Source: Pseudomonadales bacterium (GTDB lineage: Bacteria > Pseudomonadota > Gammaproteobacteria > Pseudomonadales > Azotimanducaceae). From it: a stretch of DNA of 64,000 nt. Location: NCBI GenBank assembly GCA_019090615.1, contig JAHRVQ010000012.1:124001-188000 (forward strand). The letters run 5' to 3'. The translations under genes were made by a program, and so were the position numbers. A model generated the notes under the pieces. It did no database searches. It saw only the letters and a list, made by a program, of their open reading frames with translations, and was not told the origin of the DNA. Below, piece by piece: positions 4,530-48,123 of this stretch; the stretch's first letter is position 1; each line of letters starts with the position of its first letter.

Positions 4530-5696
4530 ATGAATCTCAGTGACAAGGCGGTCATTACCGGCGTAGGTGATACAGCTTATACCCGCGGCGGCGACAAAAC
4601 CTCAGTGGAGCTTATGCTAGAAGCCATTCGCAATGCGGCGGCAGATGCGGGTCTAAAGCCCAACGAACTGGACGGCATCATTCCGCCGATGCTAGATACC
4701 TATGCCGAGGAACTGGCGGCCAATCTTGGCATTGCTGATATGCGTTACTCTGTAACTGTACACACCGGCGGCGCCAGTGCTGTGACCGGCTTGCAAGATG
4801 CCGCCATGGCCGTTGCTAGTGGTCTGGCAAATCATGTCTGTGTCGTCGTTGGCTGGAATGGCTACTCGGCCCTGCGTCCCAAACCCGGCCAGAAACCGAA
4901 TAGAGGCATGCGCGAAACAGCCATGTCGCTATCCACCAAAGATTATTATTACCCCTATGGGGTGACAGCACCAGTGCAGCTGTATGGCTGGTTAGCAACC
5001 AGGCATCAGCAAATTTACGGCACCCAACCGGAAGATACCGGCGCAATCGCCATAGCCGCCAGGAAACATGCCCAGCTTAACGATCGCGCGATGATGCAGG
5101 GCCAGGAATTAACCATGGAAGCGTACCTGAATTCACGTTGGATATCAGAGCCTTTCAGGCTCAATGATTGCTGCCTTGAAACCGATGGTGCCTGTGCAAT
5201 TATTGTATCCAGCCCAGAGCGCGCCAAGGATCTGGCGAAAAAGCCAATCTACATTTCAGGTGTTGCCGAAGGCCACCCCTATCCTGCAGACGATATCGCT
5301 GCTCGACCTGATCCGTTCGAAATCGGCCTTTCTTTTGCCGCCCAAAAAGCATTTGATATGGCCGGCGTAAAAGCAACCGATATGGATTTTATGCAAATTT
5401 ATGATTGCTTCACTTATGTGGTATTACTGCAAATGGAAGCCATGGGTCTGTTTGAGCGTGGCGGCATCGCCGACTACGTCAAAGATGGCGCAATCGAGTT
5501 AGGCGGTAAATGTCCCATTAACACCCACGGCGGCCTCCTTAGTGAAGGACATGTATGGGGTGCCAACCACATCGTAGAAGCAACCCGCCAACTGCGCGGC
5601 GAATGTGGCGAACGACAGGTTAACGATGCCAGTCTCGGTCTGGTAACAGGTTGGGGTGATTTAGGTGATGGCGCCATCGCTATTCTTCATAATTGA
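4530..5696 (+). CDS. SCP-x/Ltp-type thiolase-like lipid-transfer protein (probable acyl-CoA aldolase or thiolase)
   Basis: 388 residues with a thiolase fold: N-terminal [13 protein letters not shown] and a C-terminal NTHGG box at 331-335. Where true thiolases carry the nucleophilic Cys (about residue 80-85), this protein reads HTGGASAV, so that Cys is absent. This is usual for the SCP-x-related lipid-transfer subfamily. That subfamily includes Ltp2, a retro-aldolase of steroid side-chain degradation that works with a DUF35 partner. A YDCFT motif lies at 291-295. A DUF35 gene follows 113 bases downstream, which supports a two-protein acyl-CoA C-C lyase. The substrate is unknown. The ATG at 4530 is preceded by an AAGGGGA-type site. 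Ordinary biosynthetic thiolase is less likely. Confidence 0.85.
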
Positions 5697-43216: not shown

Positions 43217-43555
43217 TTATTCGCCAGCCGAGGTTTTTCTTAAGCTTCTTGCCGACTCGATACTGCCAACATTTTCAACATTGGTATATCCTGCCTGCTC
43301 CAGCGCTGACACAGCTTTTGCCGCCCTGCCGCCACTCAGGCAATATACCTTTATGACAGAATCTTTAGCCAGCGAACCCGCCTCCACATGACCAACAATC
43401 TCATCGTAGGAGACATTAACATCACCTGGAATAGCATCGATGGCATTTTCCAGACTACTCCGCACATCGAACCAATGGGTTTCAGCGTTGACACCAGAAT
43501 ATGATAACAACATGAATAAAAAACCCATGAGCTGCGTTTTTCTTCTACCAGTCAC
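43217..43555 (-). CDS. Exported rhodanese-like protein
   Basis: 112 residues. A signal peptide (LMGFLFMLLSYSGVNA, cleavage about residue 24) precedes a single rhodanese domain with WFDVRS and active-site Cys72 in VYCLSGGRAAKA. It would move sulfane sulfur or act on thiols in the periplasm. The start is GTG 43555 with AAGGAG nine bases upstream. It is divergent from the bufferin operon; a sulfur link is possible but unproved. Confidence 0.88.
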   Translation of the reverse strand: MTGRRKTQLMGFLFMLLSYSGVNAETHWFDVRSSLENAIDAIPGDVNVSYDEIVGHVEAGSLAKDSVIKVYCLSGGRAAKAVSALEQAGYTNVENVGSIESARSLRKTSAGE

Positions 43556-44103: not shown

Positions 44104-44568
44104 ATGAATGGAACTTTAAAAAATAAATTAACCGGTGCCGCACTGGCATTTGCCGCCGCAGGACTGGTGAGCTGTAGTACCGTCGATACCAACAGCGCCG
44201 AACAGGCCGCTAGCGGTAACAATACCGACCTCGTTCACTGTTATGGTGTAAACGCCTGCAATGGTCACAATGATTGCAAATCAGCCAACAACGCCTGCGC
44301 TGGCAAAGCAAGCTGTAAAGGCCACGGCTTTGTCGCCATGCCCTCAAAAAGCTGTGGCGATATTGGTGGCAAGACCCAGGACCCCTGGGTGGGCAGTGTG
44401 ACAACGGCAGAATTATCCCATTGTTATGGGGTCAATAAATGTAATGGGTATAACGACTGCAAGACTGCGGATAATGCCTGTGCCGGTAGAGCTTCCTGCA
44501 AAGGAACCGGTTTTGTAGCCATGTCTGCCAAGGCATGCGGTGATGTCGGCGGGAAAACCGGCGCCTGA
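44104..44568 (+). CDS. bufA2: BufA2-type bufferin metallophore precursor with two tandem cysteine units and a lipobox
   Basis: 154 residues. The signal sequence ends in LVSC (Cys24), a lipobox, so the product may be lipid-anchored. Two homologous units follow, CYGVNxCNGxNDC...ACAG...SCKGxGFVAM...CGDxGGK, 61 residues apart. Each has six cysteines with identical spacing (46, 52, 58, 65, 71, 84 and 107, 113, 119, 126, 132, 145). This is the BufA2-type precursor pattern: ribosomally made, cysteines modified by the DUF692 enzyme, binding copper in the periplasm. BufA2 precursors as I recall them carry one unit. Genes bufB and bufC follow. AGGAG precedes the ATG. Confidence 0.85.
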   Translation: MNGTLKNKLTGAALAFAAAGLVSCSTVDTNSAEQAASGNNTDLVHCYGVNACNGHNDCKSANNACAGKASCKGHGFVAMPSKSCGDIGGKTQDPWVGSVTTAELSHCYGVNKCNGYNDCKTADNACAGRASCKGTGFVAMSAKACGDVGGKTGA

Positions 44569-44627
44569 ACCTGATAAGCCAATACAGAAATGAATCTGAG
44601 CTTACCCAGGTAACAGGAGCCATCTAA

Positions 44628-45470
44628 TTGGAAAACAAATTTCTTGGCTTCGGCCTGGGCCTTCGGACTGAACATTTTCAGGACATTCTAAATAACCAAC
44701 CAGCTATTGACTGGCTGGAGATAATTTCCGAAAATTTTTTTGTTGCTGGTGGCAAACCTAAACACTACCTACATCAAATCCGAAACACCTACCCCATGGT
44801 CATGCATGGGGTTTCTCTATCTATTGGATCGACAGACCCACTTAATCAGAGTTATCTGCGTAATTTAACGCAGCTTATACATGAAATTGAACCAGAATGG
44901 GTTTCCGATCATCTATGCTGGACTAGCATCGGTAATGTTAATAGTCACGACCTGCTACCGCTACCCTATAGCGAAGAAGCCATTAACCACGTAGCAGACA
45001 GAATCAAACAGGTGCAGGATGTTCTCGGTCAACAAATTTTACTGGAAAATGTCTCAAGCTATCTTACTTATAACGAATCTATTTGCCCAGAATGGGAATT
45101 TATATCAGAAGTTGTCTCAAGGGCCGACTGTTATATCCTGCTTGATATCAATAACATTTATGTTAGCGCCAGAAATCATGGCTTCGAACCGCAAGAATAT
45201 ATAAACGCCATTGATACAAAGCGCGTACGCCAATTTCATCTTGCTGGCCATACCGATTATGGCGATTATGTGATAGATACCCATGACCACGAAATATGCG
45301 ACCCTGTCTGGGATTTATATCAACTATGCTGCCAGCGCTTTGGCGCTATAAGTACGCTGATTGAACGAGATGATAATATTCCTGCCATCAACAGCCTGCT
45401 GTCCGAACTGGCCAGAGCGCGCTCCGTTTTAGACCAGACCGACCTTTCATCGACCAATCAACTTTCATGA
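44628..45470 (+). CDS. bufB: DUF692-family RiPP modification enzyme BufB
   Basis: 280 residues, TIM barrel. DUF692 signature motifs are visible in order: GLGLRTEHF, LEIISENF, MHGVSLSIGS, SDHLCW, LLENVSSYL, LLDINNIYVSARNHG, FHLAGH, DTHDHEI and LIERDDNIP. The His/Asp/Glu residues bind the multi-iron centre. It modifies precursor cysteines, as MbnB does in methanobactin and BufB does in bufferins. The start is TTG 44628, set by AGGAG nine bases upstream. Its TGA overlaps the bufC ATG (ATGA), so the partner is co-translated. Confidence 0.93.
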   Translation: MENKFLGFGLGLRTEHFQDILNNQPAIDWLEIISENFFVAGGKPKHYLHQIRNTYPMVMHGVSLSIGSTDPLNQSYLRNLTQLIHEIEPEWVSDHLCWTSIGNVNSHDLLPLPYSEEAINHVADRIKQVQDVLGQQILLENVSSYLTYNESICPEWEFISEVVSRADCYILLDINNIYVSARNHGFEPQEYINAIDTKRVRQFHLAGHTDYGDYVIDTHDHEICDPVWDLYQLCCQRFGAISTLIERDDNIPAINSLLSELARARSVLDQTDLSSTNQLS

Positions 45471-46309
45471 ACAAATCCAGAACAATTAGAACCACAGATG
45501 ATAAGTCCCCAACTGGCTTAAAAGTACGCCAGCAACAATTGATGGATTTTCTCCTTTCTGGCAACCCAGATATCCAGCAACATATCGCTCAGCAGGGAAA
45601 AACCAGCACACAGTCACGACTTGGCATCTACCGCAATGCCTATTCAAGTCGACTACGCGACGTCATCGATATTGACCATCCGATTACTGGCACTTATCTC
45701 GGCGACGAACTGTTTGAATTAATGGTAAATCAGTATATCCAGCAACATCCATCTAACGGCACTTCACTGCGGCATTTTGCAAACAATCTACCAGACTTTT
45801 TAGGACAACACCCCCCGTTCAATGACAACCTGCAAATATCCGAATTAGCTAGATTCGAGAGAATATTACTATCGTCTTTCGATGCCGCAGATGCCAACCG
45901 AATTTCCCTTCCTCAATTATCGTCTCTACCCGCTGATGCCTGGCCTACGATGACAATCAATTTTCACCCGAGCGTACAGTTGTTTAATACCCACTGGAAT
46001 GTAGTCGCCATTTGGCAGGCAATCACACAACAAACAAACCCACCTGCGCCAGAGCAATGCAATGAATCCTGGCTGGTATGGCGCAATAGCGAAATGCTGA
46101 CTGAATTCCAGAACATGGATAATATCGCACTATGGATGTTTCACCAGATAAAGGCAGGTGCCGACTTCGCAACAATTTGTGAATCACTACTGGAAATTGT
46201 TGCTGAAGGAGCTGTCAGTGCCGCTGCGGTTGATGTCCTAACCCGATGGATTAATATGGGCGCTATTAGCAATATCGGCACTGATACGGCCGTTGTCCGC
46301 AGCACCTGA
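45467..46309 (+). CDS. bufC: DUF2063-family RiPP partner protein BufC
   Basis: 280 residues. The N-terminal helical domain (about 22-115) has the DUF2063 pattern RLGIYRNAYSSRLRDVI...DHPI...LGDELFELMVNQYI; the C-terminal half is a winged-helix-like domain. BufC/MbnC-type proteins bind the precursor and present it to the DUF692 enzyme. The ATG overlaps the bufB stop codon. It ends before a T-tailed hairpin. Confidence 0.9.
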   Translation: MNKSRTIRTTDDKSPTGLKVRQQQLMDFLLSGNPDIQQHIAQQGKTSTQSRLGIYRNAYSSRLRDVIDIDHPITGTYLGDELFELMVNQYIQQHPSNGTSLRHFANNLPDFLGQHPPFNDNLQISELARFERILLSSFDAADANRISLPQLSSLPADAWPTMTINFHPSVQLFNTHWNVVAIWQAITQQTNPPAPEQCNESWLVWRNSEMLTEFQNMDNIALWMFHQIKAGADFATICESLLEIVAEGAVSAAAVDVLTRWINMGAISNIGTDTAVVRST

Positions 46310-47607: not shown

Positions 47608-48123
47608 CTAGTCGCCCCGACCATTTCTGCGATAACTATAAATCAGATGGTCGATACTTAATTTCCCTGGTCCAAGAAAAATTAATGGTAAAAATAAAAC
47701 CAGATACATAAGGGGCAACTTATAGTTGCCGAAACCTTTATTAGAAATGGCGTAACCCGCCAACATATCACTCCAGGAAGACCACCCTTCCACCGGAATA
47801 TGCACCGCGATAGCCGCAACCACGGTGAGGATACACAGTGAAATTGACATATAACGTGTCCCCAGGCCCACCAGAATAGCAACAGACCCCAACAACTCAA
47901 ACCAGGTGGCCATAAACCAGCTAATTTGCACATCAATTATACTAAACGGGAATGGGAAATTTGCCTGGATAGCACTAAACCAGTTAGCGCCGTTAAATTT
48001 TTCAACACCCGCCTCCCAGAACTCCCAGGCCAGTAAAATACGCACTGCCAACAGCGGAATAAAACCACCGATGGCGTTGAGTAGCCGTCGAAACCATGCT
48101 TCCAGGTTAATTAATAAGGTCAT
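47608..48123 (-). CDS. DoxX-family membrane protein
   Basis: 171 residues with four membrane segments. RILLAWEFWEAGVEKFNG is the start of the DoxX family, with FELLGSVAILVGLGTRY and LPLIFLGPGKLSIDHL. DoxX proteins are often found near DUF692 (bufferin/HvfABC) operons; here the gene is on the opposite strand and shares a transcript with the antiporter, so the link is possible but not fixed. TAGGAGA precedes the ATG. Confidence 0.88.
   Translation of the reverse strand: MTLLINLEAWFRRLLNAIGGFIPLLAVRILLAWEFWEAGVEKFNGANWFSAIQANFPFPFSIIDVQISWFMATWFELLGSVAILVGLGTRYMSISLCILTVVAAIAVHIPVEGWSSWSDMLAGYAISNKGFGNYKLPLMYLVLFLPLIFLGPGKLSIDHLIYSYRRNGRGD

Follow-up and report, generated by a model that had tools for sequence, protein, structure and literature searches.

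The closest described systems include the Buf2 bufferins. In bufferins, core cysteines are oxidized by BufB and BufC, the product is exported by the Sec pathway, and the resulting thiooxazoles bind periplasmic copper (PMC12452194). The Caulobacter Buf2 was reported to resemble Buf1 in function, in mass loss per Cys, and in UV absorbance (PMC12452194); in the published work considered here the chemistry of Buf2 is unsolved, and mass loss and UV absorbance are the only data reported. According to Antoine et al. (2025), six conserved Cys are present in 90% of the Buf2 precursors and twelve in the rest (about 10%), and a 12-Cys protein, WP_077285100 of Cognaticolwellia aestuarii, was modeled by AlphaFold2 as duplicated six-Cys domains. 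Lipoprotein signal peptides are predicted in about 16% of the Buf2 bufferins; in the sections of that article considered, this frequency and that of the 12-Cys forms are given separately and unlinked (PMC12452194), and a link between doubling and lipobox is not stated in the published accounts considered. Lipobox precursors modified by an MNIO also include DybA (chryseobasin type) and NedA, of the oxazolin-type sister family, which was isolated from E. coli as a lipidated, triacylated MNIO product; the same 2025 preprint lists lipobox-bearing bufferins identified by bioinformatics (PMC12636315). Among the captophorins, or 5-thiooxazole metallophores, the solved chemistry is that of the Lys-Cys (EGKCG) members, whereas the Cys-Lys group (BufA2B2C2) has only been modeled (PMC13097082).

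The operon reported here lies in a window of 64,000 nucleotides, the whole stretch of DNA that was analyzed, from a Pseudomonadales bacterium. Like the 12-Cys bufferins of the Buf2 type (Buf_6/12Cys, BufA2), it combines two six-Cys domains per precursor with MNIO and DUF2063 genes, but it stems from a species other than C. aestuarii. The C. aestuarii homologue in our data (L018), judging by the species presumably WP_077285100 itself, is 60% identical to BufA2 over residues 1 to 153 and carries LMGC at the same place. With DybA and NedA it shares a lipobox precursor next to an MNIO, whereas the precursors of these other families have CPACGMG or EGKCG motifs instead of six-Cys units; with the Cys-Lys captophorins it shares an Asp in BufB and Cys-Lys dyads in both units. 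Since doubling and a lipoprotein signal have both been published for Buf2, the operon is a further example of a system whose kind is already known. The suggestion in the original prediction that a double unit may be new was wrong: duplicated domains are common among known bufferins, at about 10% of Buf2 (PMC12452194), and our survey for other two-unit BufA2 precursors found 26 further loci. Novelty of the lipobox on BufA2 was rejected in view of the published 16% and of these same 26 loci. The bufABC operon is thus an ordinary member of the described bufferin branch; as a clear instance of the membrane-anchored copper bufferins with two domains, it leaves the knowledge of the class unchanged. 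Its contributions are modest: doubling is associated with the lipobox, the BufB proteins form a near-single lineage, and an EGKCG cluster coexists in the genome. The first of these offers a handle on whether anchoring and doubling alter copper capacity or location.

The bufABC operon and its precursor

The genes bufA2, bufB, and bufC form a type-2 bufferin operon, an identification that is backed by curated models. The features of the operon and of the two genes downstream are as follows.

44104..44568, + strand: bufA2; NF050166 Cu_RiPP_BufA2, E = 3.1e-40, in two stretches, above the curated cutoff
44164..44175, + strand: lipobox L21-V-S-C24 with Ser as the +2 residue; read from the sequence, a lipobox being conserved in 24 of the 27 two-unit precursors
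44239..44355, + strand: first six-Cys unit, C46 to C84; spacing 6-6-7-6-13; six Cys invariant in 18 homologues
44422..44538, + strand: second six-Cys unit, C107 to C145; same spacing, 61 residues after the first; six Cys invariant in 18 homologues
44628..45470, + strand: bufB, MNIO (formerly DUF692) maturase, TTG start; NF050167 MNIO_BufB; PF05114, E = 1.4e-112
45467..46309, + strand: bufC, DUF2063 partner protein; PF09836, E = 1.7e-17, over the gathering score
46360..47601, − strand: CPA1-type antiporter, convergent with bufABC
47608..48123, − strand: DoxX/HvfX-family protein; PF07681; NF050144 matur_HvfX_fam, 132 bits (cutoff 80)

The bufA2 gene runs from an ATG at 44104 to a stop codon ending at 44568 and encodes 154 amino acids. 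Of the thirteen Cys of its product, C24 belongs to LVSC, and the other twelve form two groups of six, at positions 46, 52, 58, 65, 71, and 84 and at 107, 113, 119, 126, 132, and 145, so that each corresponding pair is exactly 61 residues apart and the twelve Cys agree with the 6 or 12 conserved Cys that characterize Buf2. All twelve were invariant in an alignment of 18 sequences whose homologues come from several gammaproteobacterial families. Model NF050166 matches the protein twice with a total of 136.2 bits against a cutoff of 60, and the Pfam search of the precursor gave no match above the cutoff. The two units are 77% identical at the protein level, which together with the equal spacing and the double match excludes a chance resemblance, but only 65% at the DNA level. 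In the AlphaFold2 model they appear as two like domains, each composed of a strand, a Cys loop, a strand, and a helix, preceded by a disordered N-terminal part; the confidence of this model is modest (mean pLDDT of 64) and is poorest in the N terminus and the Cys-rich loops. The original prediction of a bufferin operon with a lipobox-bearing precursor, in which two equally spaced six-Cys units follow LVSC and a DUF692 and a DUF2063 gene come next with a four-base overlap, was therefore right, as the Cys positions, the curated models NF050166 and NF050167, and the ATGA at 45467 to 45470 bear out.

Both maturation proteins score above the cutoffs of their models. BufB, whose TTG start at 44628 has AGGAG eight bases upstream, reaches 386.6 bits with NF050167 (cutoff 310), and its conserved HG, SDH, EN, DxNN, HxAG, DTH, and ERD motifs align with the solved MbnB and DUF692 structures. 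BufC scores 63.9 bits with PF09836 (cutoff 27.2). An assignment to the HvfABC/oxazolin (EGKCG) systems is not supported: BufB obtains 284 bits with the HvfB model (cutoff 360) and BufC 56 bits with the HvfC model NF050145 (cutoff 142), and the EGKCG motif is absent from the bufA2 precursor. BufB carries ERDDN, with D249 as the Asp, and an Asp at this site instead of Phe is reported as the usual residue of MNIOs with Cys-Lys precursors, the Phe form being that of Lys-Cys enzymes (PMC13097082). Cys-Lys dyads occur in both units, at C58 and C71 and at C119 and C132, so that together with this Asp these cysteines are expected to be the likeliest targets of BufB. By analogy to Buf1, the outer pairs C46/C84 and C107/C145 would form disulfides. 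Beside bufABC neither a copper-related regulator nor a recognized copper operator was identified, and scans for promoters and terminators around the operon gave matches no more numerous than in shuffled sequence.

Lipobox and predicted membrane address

By inspection and conservation, the N terminus of BufA2 has the build of a Sec-type signal peptide, with a charged start (KNK) and a hydrophobic stretch that ends in LVSC. This end conforms to the lipobox pattern [LVI]-x-[GAS]-C with C24 as its Cys, a call made from pattern and conservation, and no obvious AxA site was seen after it. Among the 27 two-unit precursors, a lipobox is conserved in 24, and in these 24 Asp never occurs at +2. In the three exceptions, L009 and L019 (both Porticoccaceae) and L085, the signal peptide ends without any Cys and in a form that resembles a signal peptidase I site, such as LATAAP.

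Sorting of lipoproteins is governed by the residue at +2, and the outer membrane is the default in the case of proteins lacking Asp at this position (the Lol rule). As BufA2 has Ser at +2, the outer membrane is its likelier address, and we infer that the product is lipidated at C24 and predict that it is sorted there. The anchored precursor of the original prediction hence stands as to the lipobox at C24, but its placement at the "periplasmic membrane" needs to be refined to a probable outer-membrane address.

Distribution and descent of the doubled form

A search with the BufA2 precursor as query, together with surveys in which the BufA2 model was run over relatives, the class, and the phylum, resulted in 27 two-unit precursors, including that of this operon. 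The initial search used BufA2 of this operon and is thus biased toward two-unit lipobox proteins, whereas the profile survey is not. In the profile-driven survey alone, a lipobox was present in 6 of 7 two-unit precursors as compared to 13 to 16 of 119 single-unit ones. The corresponding Fisher p value, with lipoboxes called by pattern and by eye, is about 1e-4 or lower, but overstates the independence of the rows, which are related by descent. Pattern matches in L034, L044, and L106 were discarded on visual inspection, because the likely start codon is located downstream of them.

In a BufB tree of 81 rows, 23 of the 24 two-unit rows fall into one group (support 99/94), and the remaining one, L020, is located beside three rows with single-unit precursors, within a larger group that comprises 27 rows (99/97). 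The BufB enzymes of the two-unit precursors thus make up what is essentially a single lineage of Gammaproteobacteria. The simplest reading is a single origin of the doubled form in an ancestor of this BufB branch. Two of the three single-unit loci, L022 and L055, have two adjacent precursor genes, one with and one without a lipobox, and the doubled form possibly arose by fusion of such a gene pair. The closest BufB relatives of this operon are the two Porticoccaceae without a lipobox, L009 and L019. Identity between the units of one protein (0.80) is slightly higher than that between first units across proteins (0.78), so that some homogenization between units may have taken place. A very recent duplication is ruled out by the 65% DNA identity of the units and by their presence in several families. 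There is an even chance, in our estimate, that the two-unit lipobox precursors and their own BufB clade represent one old gammaproteobacterial lineage of specialized, membrane-anchored copper buffers with two sites, which passed on the doubled unit and the anchor jointly and lost the latter only rarely.

Several loci show further arrangements. In L022 (Methylophaga; 4850 to 5527), the adjacent precursors differ: one has a single unit and a lipobox, and in the other the Cys motif has grown through internal repeats, each about 11 residues long, which is another way to gain Cys sites. L136 (contig 3 of G412) carries three consecutive BufA2 genes, of which one lacks a lipobox, a single-unit one has IAGC, and a two-unit one has both IAGC and a His/Gly-rich linker, GHGHGHGHSHG. 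The Shewanella locus L016 encodes a two-unit precursor, and no relative of bufB or bufC was found within its 10 kb, so that it appears as a stand-alone bufferin gene.

Proposed function and genomic surroundings

We consider it probable (about 0.85) that the operon produces a lipid-anchored two-unit type-2 bufferin, the cysteines of which would be modified by BufB and BufC to thiooxazoles and which would buffer periplasmic copper at the membrane. Gene content, family, tandem units, lipobox, and conservation are seen in this locus, and its relatives are the guide for Cys modification, export, and copper buffering. The precursor would be recognized by BufC, and BufB, an iron oxidase, would act in the cytoplasm and convert selected core Cys of both units into copper-binding thiooxazoles. 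After export by Sec, the modified precursor would be lipidated at C24, cleaved before this residue by signal peptidase II, and probably come to reside at the outer membrane, on the side of the periplasm, where its two putative metal-binding domains would buffer copper. It is plausible that a two-unit molecule holds twice the metal.

The surroundings contribute a candidate partner. DoxX is a usual gene of bufferin clusters (PMC12452194), and NF050144 is named for the maturation of copper-binding RiPPs; the convergent DoxX/HvfX gene, located outside the operon, is a possible fourth component of the system. The antiporter family is also found near bufABC in four Colwellia loci (L005, L006, L007, and L015) and in L009 and L020, in differing arrangements; in the latter two, a glutamate-synthase-like gene and DoxX are nearby as well. 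Divergent from bufABC, a small rhodanese (43217 to 43555, − strand), PspE-like below the model cutoff, has a signal-peptide-like start.

Three other readings were weighed against an anchored two-unit copper buffer. Were C24 left unlipidated and the protein cut by signal peptidase I, a soluble two-unit bufferin would be free in the periplasm; L009, L019, and L085 indicate that a two-unit bufferin can do without an anchor, and two of them are the closest BufB relatives of this operon. Nevertheless, a canonical LVSC closes the hydrophobic stretch with no obvious AxA site behind it, and the Cys at this position is kept in 24 of 27 cases, making a soluble product unlikely here. Far less probable still is a single functional unit, with the second one degenerate or artefactual: the 77% identity of the units is what a duplication might give, but all twelve Cys are invariant, and an assembly artefact is already refuted by the 26 other two-unit loci and the low DNA identity.

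The protein may alternatively handle mainly another metal, or serve in uptake as a metallophore. Other metals have been suggested for some bufferins, for example, those with MerC fusions (Antoine et al., PMC12452194), and the neighboring antiporter and rhodanese genes give no pointer to copper. Against this, the metal demonstrated for bufferins and for the related 5-thiooxazole peptides is copper (PMC12452194, PMC13097082), and no import receptor was recognized among the flanking genes examined, so that such a role has a small probability as compared to copper buffering.

A second MNIO cluster was found elsewhere in the genome (L154; G000 contig 50, 1051 to 3186). It encodes a 122-amino-acid precursor with five SCGEGKCG repeats, a DUF2063-like protein, and an MNIO that, next to this EGKCG (Lys-Cys) precursor, has ERDFN, the Phe form. 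Together with bufABC, this cluster provides the genome with two different copper-RiPP types.
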